64,000 bases of DNA. It comes from Alphaproteobacteria bacterium (GTDB lineage Bacteria > Pseudomonadota > Alphaproteobacteria > DSM-16000 > Inquilinaceae). The stretch lies in assembly GCA_028284045.1 (NCBI GenBank), contig JANQSN010000043.1:1-64000 (forward strand), in the 5' to 3' direction. The notes beneath the pieces are model-generated. The model did no database searches. It worked only from the letters and a program-made list of their open reading frames with translations, and was not told the origin of the DNA. Shown here piece by piece: positions 4,572 through 53,668 of this stretch. How positions within the stretch are numbered: the stretch's first letter is position 1; the number at the start of each line of letters is the position of its first letter. A program made the translations under genes and the position numbers.

Positions 4572-5711
4572 ATGGCCTCCGTTTCCATCCGCAACGTCTA
4601 CAAGGCGTTCGGCAGCGTCGAGATCATCCACGGCGTCAGCGTCGAGATCGAGGACCACGAGTTCGTGGTGCTGGTCGGTCCCTCGGGCTGCGGCAAGTCC
4701 ACCCTGCTGCGCATGATCGCCGGGTTGGAGAAGATCACCGGCGGCGATATCGCCATCGGCGACCGCGTGGTCAACATGGTGCCGCCGAAAGAGCGGGATA
4801 TCGCCATGGTGTTCCAGAACTACGCGCTCTACCCGCATATGACCGTCTACAAGAACATGGCCTTCAGCATGACGCTGGCGAAGGCCGATGCGGGCGAGAT
4901 CGACCGCCGGGTGCGCGAGGCGGCGGGCATCCTCGGCCTGTCGGACTATCTGGAGCGGTTCCCGCGCCAGCTCTCCGGCGGCCAGCGCCAGCGCGTGGCG
5001 ATGGGCCGGGCGATCGTGCGCAACCCGCAGGTCTTCCTGTTCGACGAGCCGCTGTCGAACCTCGACGCCAAGCTGCGCGTGCAGATGCGCACCGAGATCA
5101 AGCTGCTGCACCAGCGCCTGCACAGCACCTCGATCTACGTGACCCACGACCAGGTCGAGGCGATGACCATGGCCGACAAGATCGTCGTCATGCGCGACGG
5201 CTATGTCGAGCAGGCGGGCACGCCGCTGGAGCTTTACGACCACCCGGTCAACCGCTTCGTCGGCGGCTTCATCGGCTCGCCGGCGATGAACTTCTTGCCC
5301 GGCCGGATCGCCCGCAACGGCACCGGCGCCGCCGTGATCGCCGATGACGGCACCCGCCTGCCGCTGTCGCCCGATCATCCGGGCGAGGATGGCCGGCCGG
5401 TCGACTACGGCGTCCGGCCGTCGGATCTGGTGCTGGACCTGGAGACGACCGACGCCATGGCGGACCCGGCCGGTGCCTCCGCGGCGCTGGCCAAGGTGCC
5501 GGTGGCCGTCGCCGACGGCGGGATCGACGCCGTGGTCGACGTGGTCGAGCCGACCGGTGCTGACACCTATGTCTTCGGCAAGATCGCCGGACTGGAGGTG
5601 TGCGCCATGTTCAACGAGCGCCACCCGCTGCAGCCGGGCCAGCCGATCCGGCTGAAGCCCAAGGTGGAGCGCGTTCACCTGTTCGATCGGCAGACCGGCG
5701 CTCATCTGTGA
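4572..5711 (+). CDS. Sugar ABC transporter ATP-binding protein (UgpC/MalK-like)
   Basis: A 379-aa ATPase of the CUT1 carbohydrate importers, acting at the cytoplasmic face of the membrane. Walker A GPSGCGKST is at 36-44, the Q-loop FQN at 81-83, signature LSGGQ at 134-138, Walker B ending DE at 158-159, and the switch His at 192. A TOBE/OB-type regulatory tail follows from about residue 235. The ATG at 4572 follows GGGGGGATAAGCAGGCCG. It is the first gene of the ATPase, binding-protein, permease, permease cluster. The neighbouring oxidoreductase operon suggests a sugar or sugar-acid substrate, but this is inference. Confidence 0.95.
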   Translation: MASVSIRNVYKAFGSVEIIHGVSVEIEDHEFVVLVGPSGCGKSTLLRMIAGLEKITGGDIAIGDRVVNMVPPKERDIAMVFQNYALYPHMTVYKNMAFSMTLAKADAGEIDRRVREAAGILGLSDYLERFPRQLSGGQRQRVAMGRAIVRNPQVFLFDEPLSNLDAKLRVQMRTEIKLLHQRLHSTSIYVTHDQVEAMTMADKIVVMRDGYVEQAGTPLELYDHPVNRFVGGFIGSPAMNFLPGRIARNGTGAAVIADDGTRLPLSPDHPGEDGRPVDYGVRPSDLVLDLETTDAMADPAGASAALAKVPVAVADGGIDAVVDVVEPTGADTYVFGKIAGLEVCAMFNERHPLQPGQPIRLKPKVERVHLFDRQTGAHL

Positions 5712-5794
5712 GGGCGGCTGCCGGCCGGTAACCCGCCGGCGGGGTACTGAACCCGCGGCGAAAGAACCCGAAACAATGGGAGGAGATCAGGATC

Positions 5795-7120
5795 ATGTCA
5801 CGTTTCACGCGTCGTAGAGTGTTGAAGGGGAGCGCCGGCCTCGCCGCCGCCGGTGCGCTGGCCTCGCAGGGCCTGCTGCGTCCGGCTTACGCCCAGGACA
5901 TGAGCTTCACGCCGGAAGACGGCGCGGAGCTGCGCATCCTGCGCTGGAGCCGCTTCGTCCAGGGCGACGAGGACCTGTTCCTGGAGAATGTGCAGAAGTT
6001 CACCGATGCCACCGGCGTCGCCGTGCGCGTCGACAACGAGAGCTGGGAGGACGTGCGCCCGAAGGCGGCGGTGGCCGCCAATGTCGGCAGCGGTCCGGAC
6101 ATCATCTTCGGCTGGTACGACGACCCGCATCAGTATCCCGACAAGCTGGTCGACCTGACCGACCTCTGTGACTATCTCGGCGGCAAGTACGGTGGCTGGT
6201 TCGACGCCGCCCTGCGCTACGGCCAGCGCGACGGCCGCTGGATCGGCATGCCCTGGGGGGCGGCCGGCAACTGCCTGGTCTACCGCCGGAGCTGGATGGA
6301 AGAGGCCGGCTTCTCCGACGGCATCCCCGGCGACACCGAAGGCTTCCTGGAGGCGTGCCGGGCACTCAACGGCATCGGCCACCCGCCGGGCTTCGCGCTG
6401 GGCAATGCGGTCGGTGACGGCAACACCTGGACGCACTGGCTGCTGTGGAGCCATGGCGGCAGCATGGTCGACGAGAACAACAACGTCATCATCAACAGCC
6501 CGGAGACCATCGCCGCGCTGACCTATGCCCGCCAGCTCTACGAGACCTTCATCCCGGGCACGGTGTCCTGGCTCGACGCCAACAACAACCGCGCCTTCCT
6601 GGCCGACGAAATCGGCCTGACGGCCAACGGCATTTCGGTCTTCTACGCGGCGAAGAACCACGAGGATCCGGCGATCCGCGAGATCGCCGACGACATCGAG
6701 CATGCCAACATGCCGATCGGTCCCGTCGGTCAGCCGTCGGAGCTGCACCTGTTCACCCAGGCGATGGTGTTCAACTACACGAACTACCCCAACGCCTGTA
6801 AGGAGTTCCTGCGCTTCATCATGGAGCGGGAGCAGTACGAGCCGTGGCAGGCGGCGTCGGAAGGGTATGTGACCCATCCGCTGGCGGCCTACGACGAGAA
6901 CCCGATCTGGACCGCGGACAGCCGCAACACGCCCTACCGCGATTGCGTGCGCCGCATGCTCTACAACGGCTATCAGGGCAATCTGGGCTACTCGTCCGCC
7001 GCGGCGATGGCCGACTACATCGTCGTCAACATGGTGGCCGAGGCCGCCTCGGGTGCCAAGTCGCCGGAGGATGCCGCGGCGGATGCGGAGCGCCGGGCCC
7101 AGCGCTACTACCGCGTCTGA
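5795..7120 (+). CDS. Extracellular sugar-binding protein, Tat-exported
   Basis: A 441-aa periplasmic substrate-binding protein of the ABC sugar family (SBP_bac_1 type). The N-terminus has a twin-arginine signal, TRRRVLKG, followed by an Ala/Leu-rich segment and a likely cleavage after AYA near residue 33. Export in folded form via Tat is therefore inferred. The mature part has the usual alternating lobes and many aromatic residues. GGGAGGAG lies at 5780-5787, just upstream of the ATG. It delivers substrate to the permeases at 7320-9180. Two hairpins follow the stop codon and may keep its transcript more abundant than the permease message. Confidence 0.92.
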   Translation: MSRFTRRRVLKGSAGLAAAGALASQGLLRPAYAQDMSFTPEDGAELRILRWSRFVQGDEDLFLENVQKFTDATGVAVRVDNESWEDVRPKAAVAANVGSGPDIIFGWYDDPHQYPDKLVDLTDLCDYLGGKYGGWFDAALRYGQRDGRWIGMPWGAAGNCLVYRRSWMEEAGFSDGIPGDTEGFLEACRALNGIGHPPGFALGNAVGDGNTWTHWLLWSHGGSMVDENNNVIINSPETIAALTYARQLYETFIPGTVSWLDANNNRAFLADEIGLTANGISVFYAAKNHEDPAIREIADDIEHANMPIGPVGQPSELHLFTQAMVFNYTNYPNACKEFLRFIMEREQYEPWQAASEGYVTHPLAAYDENPIWTADSRNTPYRDCVRRMLYNGYQGNLGYSSAAAMADYIVVNMVAEAASGAKSPEDAAADAERRAQRYYRV

Positions 7121-7144
7121 CGGTCCTGGGATGAGCCGATGACG

Positions 7145-7172
7145 CCGGGGCGGCGGGCAACCGTCGCCCCGG
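7145..7172 (+). terminator. Hairpin downstream of the sugar-binding protein gene
   Basis: CCGGGGCG (7145-7152) pairs perfectly with CGCCCCGG (7165-7172) across a 12-nt loop, starting 24 nt after the stop codon. The sequence after it is only weakly T-rich (gtttctgc...tttgttt). It probably acts as a 3' stabiliser or partial terminator rather than a full stop. Confidence 0.45.
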
Positions 7173-7210
7173 TCGTCGCGGCGTTTCTGCACTGCTTTGT
7201 TTGCATGGTT

Positions 7211-7249
7211 GCGTCATGCCCGCACGCGATGAGGATGCGGGCATGACGC
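7211..7249 (+). terminator. Strong 14-bp intra-operon hairpin (REP-like)
   Basis: GCGTCATGCCCGCA (7211-7224) is perfectly complementary to TGCGGGCATGACGC (7236-7249), with an 11-nt loop. It lies in the 199-nt gap between the binding-protein gene and the first permease. Its CGTCATGCCCGC core resembles a common REP-type intergenic element. Segmental mRNA protection or attenuation between binding protein and permeases is the likely effect (inference). Confidence 0.55.
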
Positions 7250-7319
7250 GAACGTGCCGAGAGTACGAACGGCCACGCCCGTTCGACGAGAATGCGCCGA
7301 TGATAAGTGAACCGACGAC

Positions 7320-8273
7320 ATGGTAGCCGACGCGCCCAAGCTGGGGCCCGCCCGGGCGACCCATGTCAGCCTGATGTCGCGCCTCAACAACAACCGCGAC
7401 CTGTTGGGCATCTTCTTCATGCTGCCGGCGGCGGTGCTGCTGCTGCTGTTCCTGACCTATCCCCTGGGTCTCGGCATCTGGCTCAGCATGACCGATGCGC
7501 GCATCGGCGGCGGCGGCAGCTTCATCGGCTGGGAGAACTTCGTCTGGCTCTACCGCGACGACGTGTTCTGGCTTTCCGTCTACAACACCCTGCTCTACAC
7601 GGTGGTCGCGAGCATCGTGAAGTTCGCGCTGGGCCTGTGGCTGGCGCTGCTGCTCAACCACCATCTGCCGTTCAAGGCGTTCATCCGGGCCATCGTGCTG
7701 CTGCCCTGGATCGTGCCGACGGTGCTGTCGGCCATCGCCTTCTGGTGGATCTACGACAGCCAGTTCTCGATCATCTCCTGGGCGCTGGAGGAGATGGGGC
7801 TGATCGACCAGTACATCGACTTCCTCGGCAATCCGGACAATGCGCGCGCCTCGGTGATCGCCGCCAATATCTGGCGCGGCATCCCGTTCGTGGCGATTAC
7901 GCTGCTGGCCGGTCTGCAGACCATCCCGCAATCGCTGCACGAGGCGGCGACGCTGGACGGCGCCAGCTCCTGGCAGCGCTTCCGCTACATCACCTTCCCG
8001 ATGCTGACGCCGATCATCGCGGTGGTGATGACGTTCTCGGTGCTGTTCACCTTCACCGACTTCCAGCTCATCTACGTGCTGACCCGTGGCGGGCCGCTGA
8101 ACGCCACGCATCTGATGGCGACGCTGAGCTTCCAGCGGGCGATCCCGGGCTCCCAGCTCGGCGAGGGGGCGGCGATCGCCACGGCGATGATTCCCTTCCT
8201 GATCACCGCCATTCTGTTCAGCTATTTCGGTTTGCAGCGGCGCAAATGGCAGCAGGGCTCGCGCGATGACTGA
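7320..8273 (+). CDS. Sugar ABC transporter permease (MalF/UgpA-type)
   Basis: A 317-aa inner-membrane permease with about six hydrophobic helices and a short cytoplasmic N-terminus. The ATPase-coupling EAA loop reads EAATLDGASSWQRF, close to the family consensus. It overlaps the second permease by 8 nt, so the two are probably made in equal amounts and form a heterodimeric channel. The ATG at 7320 was chosen because it leaves a short hydrophilic leader before the first helix. Confidence 0.93.
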   Translation: MVADAPKLGPARATHVSLMSRLNNNRDLLGIFFMLPAAVLLLLFLTYPLGLGIWLSMTDARIGGGGSFIGWENFVWLYRDDVFWLSVYNTLLYTVVASIVKFALGLWLALLLNHHLPFKAFIRAIVLLPWIVPTVLSAIAFWWIYDSQFSIISWALEEMGLIDQYIDFLGNPDNARASVIAANIWRGIPFVAITLLAGLQTIPQSLHEAATLDGASSWQRFRYITFPMLTPIIAVVMTFSVLFTFTDFQLIYVLTRGGPLNATHLMATLSFQRAIPGSQLGEGAAIATAMIPFLITAILFSYFGLQRRKWQQGSRDD

Positions 8274-9180: not shown

Positions 9181-9289
9181 CGCGCCGAGCCCTATCCGTC
9201 CGCCCGCGCCCGGGATCGACAGGCGCGGCACCTCCACCCTAGGATTGTGCAACGGGGACACCGGTGCAGGATTGGGTTGGGGATCTGGC

Positions 9290-12283
9290 ATGGAGGCGGC
9301 GGAAGACGCGTACGCGGAAGCCGAACGCCGCATTGCCGCGTGGCGCCAGGGCGAAGCGCTCGATCTGGCGATCGTTGGTCTGGAGACGATCCCGGGTGGC
9401 ATCCGGGCCCTGACCAAGCTGCAGTCGTTGGACTGCTCCTTTACGTCGGTCAGCGATCTGTCGCCGCTGTCTGGCCTGACCGCGCTGCAGTCGTTGGACT
9501 GCTCCCGCACGCAGGTCAGCGATCTGTCGCCGCTGTCTGGCCTGACCGCGCTGCGGTCGTTGACCTGCTCCGGCACGTCGGTCAGCGATCTGTCGCCGCT
9601 GTCTGGCCTGACCGCGCTGCAGTCGTTGACCTGCTCCGGCACGTCGGTCAGCGATCTGTCGCCGCTGTCTGGCCTGACCGCGCTGCAGTCGTTGCACTGC
9701 TTCGGCACGGAGGTCAGCGATCTGTCGCCGCTGTCTGGCCTGACCGCGCTGCAGTCGTTGGACTGCTCCGGCACGTCGGTCAGCGGTCTGTCGCCGCTGT
9801 CTAGCCTGACCGCGCTGCAGTCGTTGGACTGCTCCGGCACGTCGGTCAGCGATCTGTCGCCGCTGTCTGGCCTGACCGCGCTGCAGTTGTTGGACTGCTC
9901 CGGCACGTCAGTCAGCGATCTGTCGCCGTTATCGGGCCTGACAGCGCTGGAGTCTTTGCACTGCTCCGGTTCACTGGTCAGTGATCTTTCGCCGTTGTCA
10001 GGCCTGACGGCCCTGGAGTCCTTGGGGTGCGCCTTCACATCGGTCTGCGATCTGTTGCCGTTGGACGCACTCCCTGCACTACAGCGAGCAGAGTTTTCTC
10101 GTTGCCGGCTCGATCGCGCGCCGATCTCGATGTGGTGGAAAGCGTCTCTTCGTAATCTGCGTCTCTGGGAAACGATGATCCCGGACATCCCGGCGGAGGT
10201 GCTGTCGCAAACGCCGGTGAAGAATTGCCTCGCCTCATTGCGCGCCCATCTGAGTGACCTCGGCGACCAGCCGGAGCCGGCGCGGCAGGCCAAGCTGTTC
10301 ATTCTCGGCAATGGGCGGGTCGGCAAGACGCAGATTGCCCGGCGGCTTCGACACGAAGACTACGACCCTAGGATCACGTCGACCCATGGCATCCTGGTCT
10401 CTGACGCGCCGGTGCCGGGCGGGGGTGACGGGCGCCTCAATCTCTGGGATTTCGGCGGTCAGGACCTCTACCACAGCACCCATGCGCTTTTCCTGCGCAG
10501 CCGTTCCGTCTTCCTCGTGGTGTGGAGCGAGGCGATGGAGGCGGCGCAGACCCATGAGCATGAGGGGCTGGAGTTCCGCAACTACCCGCTGACCTATTGG
10601 CTGGACTACGTTCGGCGCCTGGGCGGTGCCGATGCGCCGGTCATCGTTGTTCAGGCGCAGTGCGACACACCGGCGGTGGAGCGCGTGTTGCCGCCGGCCG
10701 TCTGGGAAAGCCTGGAGCGCTTCACCTTCCGCAAGGTGCTCCAGTACAGCGCGCAGGAGAACCGCGGCCGGGCGGCGCTGGACGAGGCGATTGCGGAGGC
10801 GTTTGTGCAACTGGACCAACCGCTAATCGGATCCGGCCGCGCCGCCATCCTGCGGAACATCGACGGCTGGCGCGCGCAGCTAAGCGGCGACGCCGCGGCG
10901 GCGGTGCCCAAGACCCTCAGCCAGGACGATTTTCGCACGCTGTGCGAGACCACCGGCGGCATCTCCGACGCCGACCAATTTCTGCGCTTCCTGCACAATG
11001 CCGGCGCCGTGTTCCACCAGCCGGGCCTGTTCGGCGACCAGATCATCATCGATCAGAACTGGGTGTTGCAGGCGATCTACGCCGTCTTCCACCGGCAGTC
11101 CTGTACCCCCGTGCTGCGCGATCAGGGCGGCCGCTTCACCCGGTTCCTGCTGGCCGCCTTGCTTTGGGAGCGTGCGCCGAACGCCTACACGGTCAAGGAA
11201 CAGCGACTGTTCCTCAGCATGATGCAGACCTGCGGCATCTGCTTCTCGATCCGCGACTCTGGGGCGGCGGATTCAGAGTATGTCGCTCCCGACCTGCTGC
11301 CGGACAAGCGGCCGGACACCGAGATCGCCGCCCGCTGGGACCGGGCCGCGCCGATCGAGCGCGCGACCCTCCGCTTCGATCTGCTGCCCCAGACCCTGAT
11401 GCGTGGCGTGATCTGCCGCATCGGTGGTCGCGCAGGCCTGTCCGGCCTCTACTGGCTCGCCGGGCTGTGTGTCTATGAGGCGAGGACCGGCAGTCGGGCG
11501 CTGGTCGAACAGGCGATGGACGGCGACTGGTGCGGCCGCATCACCTTGGCGACGCAAGGTGGCCGGGCGCCTGACCTGCTGCGCGCGCTGGTCGACATCG
11601 TTGTGGAGGAGGCGGCGCGGTTCGGCCTTGACTACAAGCTGGACGACGAGCCCGTTCGTCGACGGCTTGACGAAGCGCCGGACATGCCCGCGCTGGAGTT
11701 CCGGTCCGATCCCACCGACCGGCCCGACTACTACGTCTCCTATGCTTGGAAAGATGACAAGTCCCCAGAGGGCCGACGGCGCGAGGACGAGGTGGACCGG
11801 TTCTGCAGCGAGAGCGAGGCCCGCAACGGCATTCGGGTTCATCGCGACAAGGACGATCTCGGCTTCCGCGACAGCATCGGCCGGTTCATGGAACGCCTTG
11901 GACAGGGGGAGCGGGTGTTCGTCTTCCTCAGCGACAAATACCTGAAATCGCCCAACTGTATGTTCGAGCTGTCGGAGGTCTGGCGCCATGCCGGCCAGCG
12001 GGAGGATGACTTCGTCGCGCGCATTCGGGTCTTTGCGCTGTCGGATGCGCGGATCAAGACCATCCCGGATCGCATGGCCTACGCAGCGCATTGGACCGCC
12101 GAGTTCGAGAAGCTGGACGCGGCGGTTCGACACTTCGGCCCAAAGCACCTGTCGGTGAAGGATGCAGCGACCTATCTCAAAATCGGCCAATTCGCCGACG
12201 CGGTGAGGGACATCCTGACGGTGATCGCCGACCGGGTGCAGCCGCGCAGCTTCGACGATTTCTTCCGGGATGGCTTCGACTGA
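9290..12283 (+). CDS. LRR-Roc-COR-TIR protein (bacterial Roco GTPase fused to a TIR domain)
   Basis: A 997-aa multidomain protein. Residues 44-263 hold ten 22-residue leucine-rich repeats plus a decayed eleventh. A Roc GTPase domain follows: P-loop GNGRVGKT 340-347, switch II WDFGGQ 386-391, a G4-position sequence QAQCD 455-459 (the usual NKxD is altered), and a SAQ G5-like motif. A COR-like region spans about 540-780 and includes a recognisable LHNAG...IIIDQNWVLQAIY stretch. A C-terminal TIR domain runs from about 811 (YYVSYAW) to 945. Glu893 in SPNCMFEL sits where TIR NADases carry their catalytic Glu. No signal peptide or membrane helix is seen. The ATG at 9290 follows GGGGA; an in-frame TTG at 9245 would add 15 residues. 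Known family facts: Roco proteins are GTP-regulated dimers and many bacterial TIRs destroy NAD+ in phage defence. Inference: the LRR senses a ligand, Roc-COR switches, and TIR executes. It stands alone between housekeeping genes. Confidence 0.9.
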   Translation: MEAAEDAYAEAERRIAAWRQGEALDLAIVGLETIPGGIRALTKLQSLDCSFTSVSDLSPLSGLTALQSLDCSRTQVSDLSPLSGLTALRSLTCSGTSVSDLSPLSGLTALQSLTCSGTSVSDLSPLSGLTALQSLHCFGTEVSDLSPLSGLTALQSLDCSGTSVSGLSPLSSLTALQSLDCSGTSVSDLSPLSGLTALQLLDCSGTSVSDLSPLSGLTALESLHCSGSLVSDLSPLSGLTALESLGCAFTSVCDLLPLDALPALQRAEFSRCRLDRAPISMWWKASLRNLRLWETMIPDIPAEVLSQTPVKNCLASLRAHLSDLGDQPEPARQAKLFILGNGRVGKTQIARRLRHEDYDPRITSTHGILVSDAPVPGGGDGRLNLWDFGGQDLYHSTHALFLRSRSVFLVVWSEAMEAAQTHEHEGLEFRNYPLTYWLDYVRRLGGADAPVIVVQAQCDTPAVERVLPPAVWESLERFTFRKVLQYSAQENRGRAALDEAIAEAFVQLDQPLIGSGRAAILRNIDGWRAQLSGDAAAAVPKTLSQDDFRTLCETTGGISDADQFLRFLHNAGAVFHQPGLFGDQIIIDQNWVLQAIYAVFHRQSCTPVLRDQGGRFTRFLLAALLWERAPNAYTVKEQRLFLSMMQTCGICFSIRDSGAADSEYVAPDLLPDKRPDTEIAARWDRAAPIERATLRFDLLPQTLMRGVICRIGGRAGLSGLYWLAGLCVYEARTGSRALVEQAMDGDWCGRITLATQGGRAPDLLRALVDIVVEEAARFGLDYKLDDEPVRRRLDEAPDMPALEFRSDPTDRPDYYVSYAWKDDKSPEGRRREDEVDRFCSESEARNGIRVHRDKDDLGFRDSIGRFMERLGQGERVFVFLSDKYLKSPNCMFELSEVWRHAGQREDDFVARIRVFALSDARIKTIPDRMAYAAHWTAEFEKLDAAVRHFGPKHLSVKDAATYLKIGQFADAVRDILTVIADRVQPRSFDDFFRDGFD
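9419..10078 (+). repeat. Ten tandem 66-bp LRR-coding repeats
   Basis: Ten head-to-tail 66-bp units encode the pattern LQSLDCSGTSVSDLSPLSGL plus TA. Units 1-8 are almost identical in DNA, differing mainly at the codons for the variable surface positions (D/T/H, S/R/F, S/Q/E). Units 9 and 10 are more diverged. Near-identity including third codon positions means recent expansion or gene conversion. This is a protein-coding repeat, not a CRISPR. Confidence 0.95.
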
Positions 12284-12371
12284 CGGCCGCCGCGCGCCTT
12301 CCGCCCGTGGGACATGACGGCGCCTCGCCGGGTCGCTATGGTCGGCGCCGTTCCCGGCGGCTTGAGCAGCG

Positions 12372-13322
12372 ATGACCCCCAGCGATACGACCGCCCGCGC
12401 CCGGCGCGGCGACCGCACCGATATCCCGCCCGATAACTGGATCGACCGGTATGCGCCGGCCGGCGCGCGGCCCTATCTGCGGCTGATGCGGCTGGAGCGG
12501 CCGATCGGCTGGTGGCTCTTGGTCTTTCCGTGCTGGTGGGGCCTGGCGCTGGCGCCGCGGCCGGACGGGTTCGCCTGGGTCGACGCGTGGTACGCCGTCC
12601 TGTTCCTTGTCGGGTCCATCGTGATGCGCGGGGCCGGCTGCACCATCAACGACATCATCGACCGGGACATCGACGGCCGGGTTGCCCGCACCCGCACCCG
12701 GCCGATCGCGTCCGGCGCGATCAGCGTGCGCCAGGCGCTGGTGTTCCTGGCCGCGCAGCTTCTGGTCGGCCTGGCCGTGCTGGTGCAGTTCAATTGGGCG
12801 ACCATCTGGCTCGGCGTGGCGTCGCTCGCGCTGGTCTTCCCCTATCCGCTGATGAAGCGGGTGACTTGGTGGCCGCAGGCCTTCCTGGGCATCACCTTCA
12901 ATTGGGGGGCGCTGGTCGGCTGGACCGCGGTGACCGGGTCGCTGGGCTGGCCGGCGGTGATCCTCTATCTGTCGGCCGCCGCCTGGACCATCGCCTACGA
13001 CACCATCTATGCGCACCAGGACAAGGAGGACGACGCCCGCATCGGCGTGAAGTCCACGGCGCTGAAGTTCGGCCCGAAAAGCAAGCCGATGGTCTTGGCG
13101 TTCTATTCGGCCGCCGTCGCCGGGATCGTTGCGGCGGGGCTGATGGCCGGGCTGTCGGTCATCTTCTTGCCGCTGGTCGGCCTCGGCGCGGCGTTCCTGC
13201 TGGTGCGGCTCGCCGCCTGGCGGCCCGACGATCCGGCCGATTGCCTTGCCCGCTTCAAGGAGCAGCGCTGGTTCGCCTGGGCCGTCTTGGCCGGTTTCGT
13301 CGTGGCCCAACTCCTGGGCTGA
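12372..13322 (+). CDS. ubiA: 4-hydroxybenzoate polyprenyltransferase
   Basis: A 316-aa integral-membrane prenyltransferase that attaches the polyprenyl tail to 4-hydroxybenzoate in ubiquinone synthesis. The first Asp-rich motif NDIIDRDID begins at residue 93 (D94, D97, D101), followed by the RTRTRP stretch. The second, YDTIYAHQDKEDD, lies near residue 215. Several hydrophobic helices and the length match UbiA. The start ATG at 12372 leaves a hydrophilic N-terminus of about 45 residues, common in alphaproteobacteria. It is monocistronic by appearance, ending at a small hairpin and convergent with the RTX gene. Confidence 0.95.
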   Translation: MTPSDTTARARRGDRTDIPPDNWIDRYAPAGARPYLRLMRLERPIGWWLLVFPCWWGLALAPRPDGFAWVDAWYAVLFLVGSIVMRGAGCTINDIIDRDIDGRVARTRTRPIASGAISVRQALVFLAAQLLVGLAVLVQFNWATIWLGVASLALVFPYPLMKRVTWWPQAFLGITFNWGALVGWTAVTGSLGWPAVILYLSAAAWTIAYDTIYAHQDKEDDARIGVKSTALKFGPKSKPMVLAFYSAAVAGIVAAGLMAGLSVIFLPLVGLGAAFLLVRLAAWRPDDPADCLARFKEQRWFAWAVLAGFVVAQLLG

Positions 13323-13345
13323 GGGGCGGCCCGCCGGACCGCCCC
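13323..13345. terminator. Hairpin between convergent ubiA and RTX gene
   Basis: GGGGCGG (13323-13329) pairs with CCGCCCC (13339-13345) immediately after the ubiA stop codon and 15 nt before the RTX gene ends. It could serve both strands, but no T-run is visible. Confidence 0.4.
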
Positions 13346-13359
13346 CTGCCCACCCGCGC

Positions 13360-14604
13360 TCAATAGAGGAAGTCGGTGCTTGTGTTGATCTCGCCGGGCT
13401 GGATGTCCTCCAGCAAGGCCAGTTCGACGAAGCCGCCGCCGGTGTCGACCAGCAGCCGGGTGTCGGTGCCGTCGGCGATGAGCTGGACGTCGGCGGCGCT
13501 GCCCACCAGCCCCGACAGATCGAACAGATCGCCCTCGGTCGGGTCGAAGTCGCGGATCACCGACCGGTCGCCGGCCGAGGCCGGCACGCCCTCGAAGATG
13601 AAGGTGTCCGCCCCGCTGCCGCCATGGGCGGTGTCGGTCGGCCCGACATGCAGCCGGTCGTTGCCGTTGCCGCCGTAGAGCCGGTCGGTGCCGCTGTTGC
13701 CGGTCAGCGTGTCGTTGCCGTTGCCGCCGTAGACCCAGTCGTTGCCGGCGCCGCCGGAGACGTAGTCGTTGCCGTTGTCGCCGCTGGCCGTGTCGTTGCC
13801 GTTGCCGGCATAGATCCGGTCGTCGTCATTGCCGCCATAGAGGCGGTCGTTTCCGACATCGCCGTAGAGCCAGTCGTTGCCGTCGTTGCCATAGACCCAG
13901 TCGTTGCCCTGGCCGCCATTGGCGGTGTCGTTGCCGTTGCCGCCGAACAGGCGGTCGACGCCGTTATGACCATACAGGTAGTCGTTGCCGTCCTGGCCAT
14001 AGAGCCGGTCGTCGCCGTCATTGCCGTAGAGGCGGTCGACGCCGTCCTCGCCGAAGAGCTGGTCGTTGCCCGCCCCGCCATAGAGGCGGTCGTTGCCGGT
14101 GCCGCCCTCCAGGAAGTCGTTGCCGTCCTGGCCGTAGAGCCGATCGTTGCCGCTGCCGCCGTCCAGCGTGTCGGCGCCGGTGCCGCCGTTGATCGAGTCG
14201 TTGCCGTTGCCGCCGCGGATCTGGTCGTTGCCGGCCATGCCGTAGAGCAGGTCCGCACCGTCGTCGCCGCGGATCTGGTCGTTGCCGTCGCCGCCGTTCA
14301 CCGTGTCGTTGCCGGTGCCGCCGTAGAGCCAGTCGTTCCCGGTCCCGCCGGAGAGGTAGTCGTTGCCGTTACCCCCCATGATCCAGTCGTTGCCCGACTC
14401 GCCGAACAGCAGATCGTCGCCGTCCTCGCCGAACAGCGCATCGTCGCCGCGGCCGCCATAGGCGCGGTCGTTGCCGGTGCCGGCCCAGATGACGTCGATG
14501 CCGTCATAGCCGTACAGCCAGTCATTGCCGCCATAGCCGTAGATGTAGTCGTTCAGGTTGGTGCCGCGCAGCGTTTCGCTACGCGAGGTTCCGCGAATAC
14601 GCAT
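13360..14604 (-). CDS. RTX-type calcium-binding repeat protein
   Basis: A 414-aa protein that is almost entirely glycine/aspartate nonapeptide repeats (GGxGxDxLY pattern), from about residue 8 (SRSETLRGTNLNDYIYGY) to about 310. A roughly 95-residue C-terminal part rich in D, G and F follows (GGSGADTFIFEG...), as in serralysin-type RTX C-termini. Such repeats form Ca2+-binding beta rolls, and RTX proteins are usually secreted by type I systems using an uncleaved C-terminal signal. No N-terminal signal peptide and no catalytic domain are visible, and no type I exporter genes are adjacent. The repetitive DNA generates long shadow frames on the other strand. The function is not deducible beyond Ca2+ binding. 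Confidence 0.88.
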   Translation of the reverse strand: MRIRGTSRSETLRGTNLNDYIYGYGGNDWLYGYDGIDVIWAGTGNDRAYGGRGDDALFGEDGDDLLFGESGNDWIMGGNGNDYLSGGTGNDWLYGGTGNDTVNGGDGNDQIRGDDGADLLYGMAGNDQIRGGNGNDSINGGTGADTLDGGSGNDRLYGQDGNDFLEGGTGNDRLYGGAGNDQLFGEDGVDRLYGNDGDDRLYGQDGNDYLYGHNGVDRLFGGNGNDTANGGQGNDWVYGNDGNDWLYGDVGNDRLYGGNDDDRIYAGNGNDTASGDNGNDYVSGGAGNDWVYGGNGNDTLTGNSGTDRLYGGNGNDRLHVGPTDTAHGGSGADTFIFEGVPASAGDRSVIRDFDPTEGDLFDLSGLVGSAADVQLIADGTDTRLLVDTGGGFVELALLEDIQPGEINTSTDFLY

Positions 14605-50863: not shown

Positions 50864-51919
50864 TCAATCGGCGCCCGCGGCCGATGCGACGCCGAGCGCG
50901 GCGGTCAGGCGCCGCCAGTCCCCCTCAGCCCCGGGCAGGCCGAAGCGCAGCCAGCGCGGATGGGCGTCGAAGCGCCGGACCAGGATGGCGTGGCCGGCCA
51001 GCCGGTCGGCGAGATCGCCCGCCGCGCCCGGCGTCTCCACCAGGCGGAGCAGCGGCGTGCCGCCCAGCGGCCGGCAGCCGGCGCGCGTCAGCACGCCGTC
51101 GAGGCGGCGGGCTGCGTCATCGAGCCGCGGCCGCGTCGCCGCCAGCCAGTCGCGGTCCTCAAGCGCCGCCGCGCCCACCGCCAGGGCCGGCCCCGAAACG
51201 GCCCAGGCGCCGAGCGCCCGGCTGAGCGCGTCGCACAGCGCTGTTGGCGCCAGCGCGAAGCCGAGGCGCAGGCCCGCCAGGCCGAAGATCTTGCCGAAGG
51301 ACTTCAGGACGATCAGGCCGGGCCGGCCGGCGGCGGCGGCGATGCTGGTTCCCGGCATCGCCTCGGCAAAGGCCTCGTCGGCGACCAGCCAGCCCCCGGC
51401 GGCGGCGAGGCGGTCGGCCAGGCCGATCAGCCCGGCGGGCGGCCAGTGCCGGCCATCGGGGTTGTTGGGTTGGCCCAGCGCCACGACCCGCGGACCCTCG
51501 CCCGCCGCGAAGGCGTCCGCCGCCGCCAGGTCCGCCAGGTCGGCGACGGCGTGGCCCGCGGCGCGCCATTGCGCGCCGTGCTCGCCATAGGTCGGCTCGA
51601 CGACGCCGACGGCGACCGGCGCGATCAGCCGCGGCAGCCATTGCAGGATCGCCTGGGTGCCGGGCGCGGCGACGATAGCCGCCGCCTTGCCGGCGCCGTA
51701 GGCGGTGCGCGCCGCGGCGGTCAGCCGGGCTTCGGCGTCGCGCTGGGGCAGCCGGGTCCAGGTCTCCGCCGCCAGCGGCGGGACCGGGTAGGGCCAGGGG
51801 TTGATGCCGGTCGACAGGTCCAGCCAGGCCGAGGCCGGGCGGCCGGTCCGCGCCGCCGCGCCGGCGACGTCGCCGCCATGCGCCGGCCGGTCGGCGGTGT
51901 CCGATGCGGGCGGGCTCAC
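50864..51919 (-). CDS. cobC: Threonine-phosphate decarboxylase-like aminotransferase (CobD/CobC)
   Basis: A 351-aa fold-type I PLP protein of the histidinol-phosphate aminotransferase group, producing (R)-1-amino-2-propanol phosphate for the nucleotide loop. Landmarks: LDLSTGINPWPYPVP, GTQAILQWLPRL, LGQPNNPDG, ADEAFAEAMPG, the PLP lysine in LKSFGKIFGLAGLRLGF, and the final RFGLPG Arg. The start is the GTG at 51919, whose GTGA overlaps the ccrM stop codon; no ATG is available near the family N-terminus. It is called cobC in Pseudomonas nomenclature and cobD in Salmonella. Confidence 0.92.
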   Translation of the reverse strand: MSPPASDTADRPAHGGDVAGAAARTGRPASAWLDLSTGINPWPYPVPPLAAETWTRLPQRDAEARLTAAARTAYGAGKAAAIVAAPGTQAILQWLPRLIAPVAVGVVEPTYGEHGAQWRAAGHAVADLADLAAADAFAAGEGPRVVALGQPNNPDGRHWPPAGLIGLADRLAAAGGWLVADEAFAEAMPGTSIAAAAGRPGLIVLKSFGKIFGLAGLRLGFALAPTALCDALSRALGAWAVSGPALAVGAAALEDRDWLAATRPRLDDAARRLDGVLTRAGCRPLGGTPLLRLVETPGAAGDLADRLAGHAILVRRFDAHPRWLRFGLPGAEGDWRRLTAALGVASAAGAD

Positions 51920-53022
51920 GCCAGCTCGGCCCGCACCTTCTGGCGGTAGACGTCGATCGGCACCCAGTGGCCGTTGGCCTGGCGGACATGCCAGAAGATC
52001 CAGCCGTTGCAGCTTGGCGCACCCTGCAGCAGCGCCCCCACCTTGTGGATCGAGCCGACCACGCGGCCGGTGTGATTCTCGCCGATCACCGTGCCGTCGG
52101 CGCGGACGCGAACGGCGAAGCGCCGCGAGGGGTCGGCCAGCGTCTCGCCCGGCCGGATCATCCCGCTTTCGACGAGCTGGCCGAAGGGGATGCGCGGTTC
52201 CTGGCGCTTCGGGGTGATCGCCAGCACCTCCGGATCGGCGTCGAAGGGGGTGGCGGCGATGCGGGCGCGGGCGCGCTCGGCATGGGCGGGGTCCTGCTCG
52301 ATGCCGACGAAGCGGCGGCCGAGGCGGCGCGCCACCACGCCCGTCGTGCCGGTGCCGAGGAACGGGTCGAGTACCAAGTCCCCCGGCCGGCTGGTCGACA
52401 GCACGACGCGGTAGAGCAGGGCTTCCGGCTTCTGCGTCGGGTGCGCCTTGGTCTTGCCGTCGTCGGTGCGCAACCGTTCCGGTCCCGAACAGATCGGCAA
52501 CAGCCAATCGCTGCGCATCTGCAGATCGTCGTTCAGCCGCTTCATGGCGTCGTAGTTGAAGAACGGCCGTCCGTCCGGCGACCGGGCCGCCCAGATCAGC
52601 GTCTCATGGGCGTTGGTGAAGCGGGTGCCGCGAAAGTTCGGCATCGGGTTGGTCTTGCGCCAGACCACGTCGTTCATCACCCAGAAGCCGAGATCCTGCA
52701 GGACCGCGCCGACCCGGAAGATGTTGTGGTAGCTGCCGATGACCCAAAGGCTGCCGTCCTTCTTCAGGACGCGGCGGCATTCGCCCAGCCAGGCGCGGGT
52801 GAAGGCGTCGTAGTCGGCGAAACCGTCGAAGCGGTCCCACGCCGCCTCCACCCCGTCGACGCGGGTGTTGTTGGGCCGGTACAGCTCCCCACCCAACTGA
52901 AGGTTATAGGGTGGGTCGGCAAAGATCAGGTCCACGGAGCCCGGCGCCAAGTCCTGCAGATGATGCAGACAGTCGCCGATCAGGATCCGTTCGCCATCCA
53001 TTGGAGGAGTCGTCTTCGTCAT
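51916..53022 (-). CDS. ccrM: Cell-cycle-regulated DNA adenine methyltransferase CcrM (GANTC)
   Basis: A 368-aa beta-class N6-adenine methyltransferase. Motif IV DPPYNLQL starts at residue 36 and motif I DPFLGTG lies at 219-225, in the beta-class order. The extra C-terminal domain of about 90 residues, with SCNGWIFWH, is characteristic of CcrM and needed for GANTC recognition. In Caulobacter, CcrM methylates new DNA at the end of replication. The ATG at 53022 matches the family start. rnhB lies 34 nt upstream. Its stop codon overlaps the GTG of cobC. Confidence 0.95.
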   Translation of the reverse strand: MTKTTPPMDGERILIGDCLHHLQDLAPGSVDLIFADPPYNLQLGGELYRPNNTRVDGVEAAWDRFDGFADYDAFTRAWLGECRRVLKKDGSLWVIGSYHNIFRVGAVLQDLGFWVMNDVVWRKTNPMPNFRGTRFTNAHETLIWAARSPDGRPFFNYDAMKRLNDDLQMRSDWLLPICSGPERLRTDDGKTKAHPTQKPEALLYRVVLSTSRPGDLVLDPFLGTGTTGVVARRLGRRFVGIEQDPAHAERARARIAATPFDADPEVLAITPKRQEPRIPFGQLVESGMIRPGETLADPSRRFAVRVRADGTVIGENHTGRVVGSIHKVGALLQGAPSCNGWIFWHVRQANGHWVPIDVYRQKVRAELA

Positions 53023-53056
53023 GACTGGCGGACCATGAGTCAGCCGGCAGCCGACG

Positions 53057-53668
53057 TCAATCCTGTACCGCCCGGCAAGGCGCGAAGCTGCGGCGGTGGT
53101 GCGGGGTGAGGCCGAGCCGGGCGATCGCCGCGCGATGCGCCGCCGTGGGATAGCCGGCGTTGCGCTCCCAGCCATAGCCGGGGTGCCGTTCGGCCAGATC
53201 AGCCATCAGCCGGTCGCGGTGCACCTTGGCGAGGATCGAGGCGGCGGCGATCGACAGGCTTCGAGCATCGCCACGCACCACCGCGGTTGCCGGGCAGGGC
53301 AGGTCGGCCGGCAACCGGTTGCCGTCGATAAGCAGGGCGGCTGGCGCGCAGGCCAGCGCCGCCACCGCCCGGTGCATCGCCAGATGCGCGGCGGCGAGGA
53401 TGTTCAGCCGGTCGATCTCCGCCGGGCTGGCCTCGCCCAGCGCGGAGGTCACAGCGTCTTGCAACAGCGGTGCCAGGGCCATGCGCTTGGCTGCCGACAG
53501 CGCCTTGCTGTCGTCGATCCGGGCGGCCAGGGCGGGGTCGAGATCGCCCGGCAGCACGACGGCGGCGGCGACCACGGGGCCGGCCAGCGGCCCGCGGCCG
53601 ACCTCGTCCACCCCGGCGACGACGCGGCCGGGCCAGCCCTGCGCGGCCTCTAGACTAGTGTCGGGCAT
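53057..53668 (-). CDS. rnhB: Ribonuclease HII
   Basis: A 203-aa endonuclease that cuts RNA of RNA-DNA hybrids and misincorporated ribonucleotides. The [19 protein letters not shown] motif carries the catalytic Asp21 and Glu22. [19 protein letters not shown] (third acidic) and [19 protein letters not shown] (fourth Asp and family Ser/Ala run) follow. Its start overlaps the upstream MFS gene by 14 nt. The rnhB-ccrM neighbourhood recurs in alphaproteobacteria to my knowledge. Confidence 0.97.

Follow-up and report, generated by a model that had tools for sequence, protein, structure and literature searches.

The function that Roco proteins serve in the bacteria that make them is the question raised by a gene (9290..12283, + strand) in the window, the whole stretch of 64,000 nucleotides of an Inquilinaceae genome that was analysed. 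This gene encodes an LRR-Roc-COR-TIR protein of 997 aa (P0001), the switch of which is related to the Parkinson's-disease protein LRRK2. Our analysis indicates that P0001 is probably a single-gene cytoplasmic NLR-like immune receptor, with LRR sensing, a Roc-COR switch and cleavage of NAD+ by TIR leading to a growth stop.

Domain architecture and predicted fold

The open reading frame (9290-12283, +) begins with ATG and is uninterrupted by stop codons; an alternative in-frame TTG start is possible at 9245, and a promoter-like site (9216..9245, +) that is a weak consensus match only (9/12 consensus matches; shuffles give a mean of 0.3) lies in the 109-bp gap that follows the ABC transporter gene. 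Four parts of P0001 give Pfam matches over the curated cut-offs: LRR_4 (1.7e-38), Roc (1.4e-17; residues 335-459), COR-A (1.9e-18; residues 541-670, encoded at 10910..11299, +) and TIR_2 (7.8e-07; residues 833-913). The COR-B half, which follows COR-A, has no Pfam match and was recognised by structure, and Pfam gives no NB-ARC match in P0001. The N-terminal repeats are ten consensus 22-aa units of internalin type starting at residues 44, 66, ... 242, encoded by a 66-bp tandem array of 9.9 copies with 89% matches (9409..10060, +). The Roc domain (10292..10666, +), the only one found in the genome of the window, retains the P-loop (GNGRVGKT, 340-347), the switch (STHGI, 364-368) and WDFGGQ (386-391), and precedes COR in the same polypeptide, the arrangement that defines a Roco protein; at G4 it has a degenerate motif (AQCD in place of NKxD, 456-459), and GTP control of P0001 may therefore be weak. 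A 19-residue hydropathy scan found neither a transmembrane (TM) segment nor a hydrophobic leader, and the protein is therefore most likely cytoplasmic. The TIR domain begins at about residue 812 and is followed by C-terminal helices (11723..12283, +). Its Glu893 (codon 11966-11968), within SPNCMFELSEVW, aligns in a profile alignment with the Glu of the CLDEL motif of RUN1 at chain position 81, which is E100 if a 19-residue offset is applied; the RUN1 E100A chain 7s2z scored about 5 bits below 6o0w in the same profile search, a difference that would fit the altered residue being the Glu that aligns to Glu893. The open reading frame, Pfam matches and repeat units bear out the sequence-only reading of this gene, which had described a single polypeptide with ten LRRs, Roc, COR and TIR, and the motifs GNGRVGKT and WDFGGQ and a Glu893 at the NADase position are where that reading had placed them.

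The comparisons with CtRoco and with TIR NADase structures that had been proposed as checks were carried out on AlphaFold2 models built on alignments made in this analysis. The best Foldseek match of the full-length model (pLDDT 89.7) is the LRR-Roc-COR crystal structure of CtRoco, 6hlu (E 1.2e-40), and its RocCOR fold was matched to 6hlu and 3dpu over the full RocCOR. The model of the TIR part (pLDDT 93.4) is best matched by the TIR domains of RUN1, RPS4 and RPP1, which are plant TIR-NLRs (E 5e-05 to 9e-04, prob 1.00). The TM-scores of these best matches are modest, at 0.37-0.52, over a model of 203 residues that takes in the extra C-terminal helices. Model and alignment together give P0001 the TIR fold and catalytic Glu of TIR-domain NADases.

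Relation to known proteins

P0001 resembles CtRoco of Chlorobium tepidum (6hlu, 8r4b) in the fold and order of LRR, Roc and COR, but the CtRoco chain has no TIR match and its G4 motif is NKID rather than AQCD. With the plant TIR-NLRs (RUN1, RPS4, RPP1, Roq1) it shares the TIR fold, the catalytic Glu and the combination of an LRR sensor with a nucleotide switch within one protein, whereas its order is reversed, the TIR being C-terminal, and its switch is a Roc-COR GTPase instead of NB-ARC. An eLife 2021 paper (PMC8195603) predicts from architecture that AP-GTPase-COR proteins with rapidly evolving LRRs are prokaryotic counter-invader systems, and counts TIR among the C-terminal effectors, of at least 24 kinds, that they carry; P0001 has the same succession of LRR, AP-GTPase (Roc), COR and C-terminal effector. 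The layout, which had been taken for something easily overlooked, was thus already catalogued, and what is new here is the evidence that repeat evolution and genomic context provide for an immune-receptor role: the concave-face diversification, the DNA-level homogenisation and the PDC-M50A pairing described below do not appear in the available part of that paper. In a review of 2019 (PMC6337361), the prokaryotic Roco proteins known were LRR-RocCOR only, so the TIR-bearing form has been little noticed in the Roco literature consulted. The literature searched, mostly non-subscription papers, yielded no phage tests of Roco proteins.

Genomic context

The P0001 gene is flanked by an ABC sugar-type transporter, 109 bp upstream, and by ubiA. 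In the sister genus (L107) the same two flanking genes have a sugar-acid kinase/aldolase cassette between them; the Roco-TIR gene is accordingly absent there, and the cassette does not tell which state is ancestral. Adjoining ubiA in the window is a gene for an RTX calcium-binding repeat protein (13360-14604, -), and the sister genus has a similar gene at the corresponding position.

PADLOC found no defence island among the 47 genes of the window that were checked; its matches were mainly one orphan/type II methyltransferase and generic mad2/mad3. A gene that is methyltransferase-like by motif (51916-53175) is probably the source of the former match and is perhaps a housekeeping CcrM-type enzyme. 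Membership of P0001 in a known PADLOC system came down to a weak SpbK match (E 0.017), and Thoeris was set aside, as PADLOC gave no ThsB match for P0001 and its gene has no adjoining defence partner gene. The genome of the window has four TIR matches: the P0001 gene, a small TIR protein (at L016), and two large proteins that combine a TIR match with long WD40 beta-propeller arrays (9501-13127 of L024, G000:C12; 5992-10755 of L026, G000:C8).

Distribution and conservation of homologues

P0001 has a match in 9/385 genomes in a class-wide search and no full-length match among 16 other genomes of its family. A scan of genome contigs added 60 further loci. About 50 TIR-bearing homologues form a coherent subfamily with a scattered distribution across seven phyla (Pseudomonadota, Planctomycetota, Nitrospirota, Verrucomicrobiota, Cyanobacteriota, Myxococcota and Acidobacteriota), and the homologues belong mainly to free-living environmental lineages. 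No relative was confirmed on viral contigs; plasmids yielded one near full-length homologue, from Niveispirillum cyanobacteriorum (41% over 97%). At four Niveispirillum/Azospirillum loci (L005, L022, L048, L082) the Roco-TIR gene adjoins partition-type genes (ParB, AAA ATPase), which suggests that these genes are carried on plasmids or chromids.

In 61 aligned sequences the P-loop, THG and WDFGGQ motifs are invariant or nearly so, the invariant residues being G340, G342, G345, K346, T347, W386-Q391 and H398. Most other members have [TSNA][QRK]CD at G4, where P0001 has AQCD. Glu893 is kept in 53/55 sequences with a residue at that position; both exceptions come from a single locus (L087) where there is no TIR motif, and the catalytic Glu is invariant in all homologues bearing a TIR. 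A tree of Roc-COR-TIR sequences, made by a quick method, groups P0001 with Stappia stellulata (support 96) within a clade of six (support 100) that also comprises Sessilibacter, a Rhodobacter MAG and two Minwuia sequences.

Turnover and diversification of the repeats

The LRR array is homogenised as DNA and is turning over fast. Where adjacent units of P0001 have identical residues they use the same codon in 152/168 cases, against an expected codon identity of 0.46 from codon usage in the remainder of the gene, and DNA-level homogenisation is also found in many homologues. The number of repeats varies widely among homologues, up to a maximum of 21, and the proteins of L048 and L082 are 94% identical in Roc-COR-TIR, yet have 8 and 18 LRRs, respectively.

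The brown-algal ROCO receptors, which share LRR-ROC-COR with P0001, have shuffled LRRs under positive selection at concave-face residues (PMC11378527); they differ in being eukaryotic, in relying on exon shuffling and in having no TIR, whereas the P0001 array expands as 66-bp tandem repeats. Their positively selected sites, mapped by motif, appear to correspond to LRR unit positions 3, 5, 7 and 8, the set that lines the concave face. Across 328 adjacent LRR pairs from 45 loci, this set has the highest dN among all 7315 four-position sets compared. By a counting method rather than a codon model, and from adjacent repeats that are non-independent, dN/dS at the concave positions, with synonymous change taken from those very codons, comes to 1.29 for all loci, 2.01 in 16 young arrays selected for low framework dS, and 1.56 for the P0001 gene alone, in which changes are few and 1141 of the 7315 sets reach its value. 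An earlier run with positions 5, 7, 8 and 10, a set picked post hoc, agrees, and we place no weight on it. The concave face therefore bears signs of diversifying selection; relaxed constraint at exposed positions is a less likely explanation of these ratios. Profiles, structure models and conservation uphold the sensor-switch-effector interpretation given to P0001 from sequence, and as to its proposed invader-derived or stress ligand, concave-face diversification favours recognition of a ligand that changes.

A partner gene in the sister clade

Three homologous loci (L019/L042, L077 and L064) differ from that of the window in that the Roco-TIR gene shares an 8-bp overlap with a gene for a two-TM protein. 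The overlapping genes (L019 7747-8178; L064 11331-11756; L077 11331-11738) encode proteins of 135-143 aa with two predicted TM segments that match PADLOC PDC-M50A. PDC-M50, a candidate system in PADLOC, consists of the two-TM M50A and a ThsB-like TIR, M50B; M50A is found in 8/289 genomes of the class, in several of which it adjoins a ThsB-like TIR, and three of these TIRs match PDC-M50B. In the sister clade, with M50A directly downstream, the Roco receptor would thus replace the small ThsB-like TIR. The genome of the window has no PDC-M50A match.

PDC-M50A in these three loci is the only conserved operon partner across about 50 homologue loci; in a few cases other neighbours recur, in only two to four related loci. 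The proposed survey of homologues for nearby defence genes thus uncovered one partner and no further conserved one, and the statement that the gene stands alone applies to the window and most homologues but not to these three. Directly 3' of the Roco-TIR gene are, in L065, a Ser/Thr kinase gene (5412-7586) whose product weakly matches TIR-type models in its C-terminal part and, in L056, a gene for an FxSxx-type TPR protein (12079-13548).

Proposed mechanism and alternative explanations

The interpretation of P0001 as an immune receptor is based on its domain content, predicted fold and invariant catalytic and nucleotide-binding residues, together with repeat homogenisation, concave-face diversification and a patchy distribution. 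We propose that the LRR array would bind a variable ligand on its concave face, most plausibly a molecule of a phage or other invader; that binding would alter the nucleotide and dimer state of Roc-COR through a putative GTP-controlled switch; that this change would free or cluster the C-terminal TIR; that the TIR would cleave NAD+, as either a direct drain or a source of an ADP-ribose-type signal; and that the infected cell would cease growth, to the detriment of the phage. The sequence-only reading had called P0001 a candidate abortive-infection NADase; this stays a prediction, and the PDC-M50A partner of the sister clade hints at a different emphasis, suggesting that the TIR may be a source of signal and not just a drain on NAD+. 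From NAD the TIR would then make a nucleotide, of cADPR type or another, and this would open a membrane effector, as in Thoeris-like systems, and bulk NAD+ loss through the TIR itself would not be the main output; the effector would be PDC-M50A in the sister clade and, for P0001, another encoded elsewhere in the genome. This version of the last step has a real chance of being correct, though we hold it short of probable: the 8-bp overlap with a two-TM PDC-M50A match, the occurrence of PDC-M50A elsewhere beside the ThsB-like PDC-M50B, and the placement of the PDC-M50A-linked genes and P0001 in one supported clade of six argue for it, while the P0001, Stappia and Sessilibacter members have no adjoining partner and the window's genome has no match to PDC-M50A.

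Three other explanations are less likely. Many animal TIR domains serve only as scaffolds, and P0001 might likewise be a signalling hub in which the TIR is an adaptor and not an enzyme; retention of the catalytic Glu in all TIR-bearing members from several phyla, and closest solved folds that belong to NAD-cleaving plant TIRs, make this improbable. The lack of a defence island would fit a cytoplasmic Roco receptor that recognises kin or self, senses stress or acts in developmental signalling, and the literature searched has not established a physiological role for bacterial Roco proteins; the same pairing of homogenisation with diversification is also described, in the available parts of the sources, for fungal allorecognition receptors (PMC2873952, PMC1805685). 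We nevertheless regard such a non-immune function as unlikely, given the patchy presence, the effector-type TIR and the sister-clade partner from a candidate anti-phage system. The LRR units of P0001 resemble those of internalins, and some bacterial pathogens deliver TIR effectors, according to the available part of one source (PMC7188309), but an effector acting on eukaryotic cells is hardly to be expected of a protein that has a Roc-COR switch and neither a leader nor a TM segment, with homologues mainly in free-living environmental lineages.

Implications for Roco proteins

Extending the immune-receptor interpretation from P0001 to the subfamily, we tentatively suggest that Roco-TIRs may be immune receptors that acquire new specificities as their LRRs are duplicated in tandem and selection diversifies the concave residues, and that they could take over the sensor role of the small ThsB-like TIR in a two-TM effector system, as a GTPase-switched counterpart of plant TIR-NLRs. 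In an LRR array, diversification of the binding face speaks for recognition of non-self, and these signs of diversification, with a defence-type partner in the sister clade, make the immune role testable. The predicted TIR output, whether NAD+ loss or a nucleotide signal, would provide a measurable activity for Roco proteins, and the genes of L048 and L082, which differ mainly in their LRR arrays, are a natural pair for asking whether the repeats set specificity. If true, this role would suggest that a sensor, a nucleotide switch and a TIR were joined separately with the Roco GTPase and with NB-ARC ATPases.
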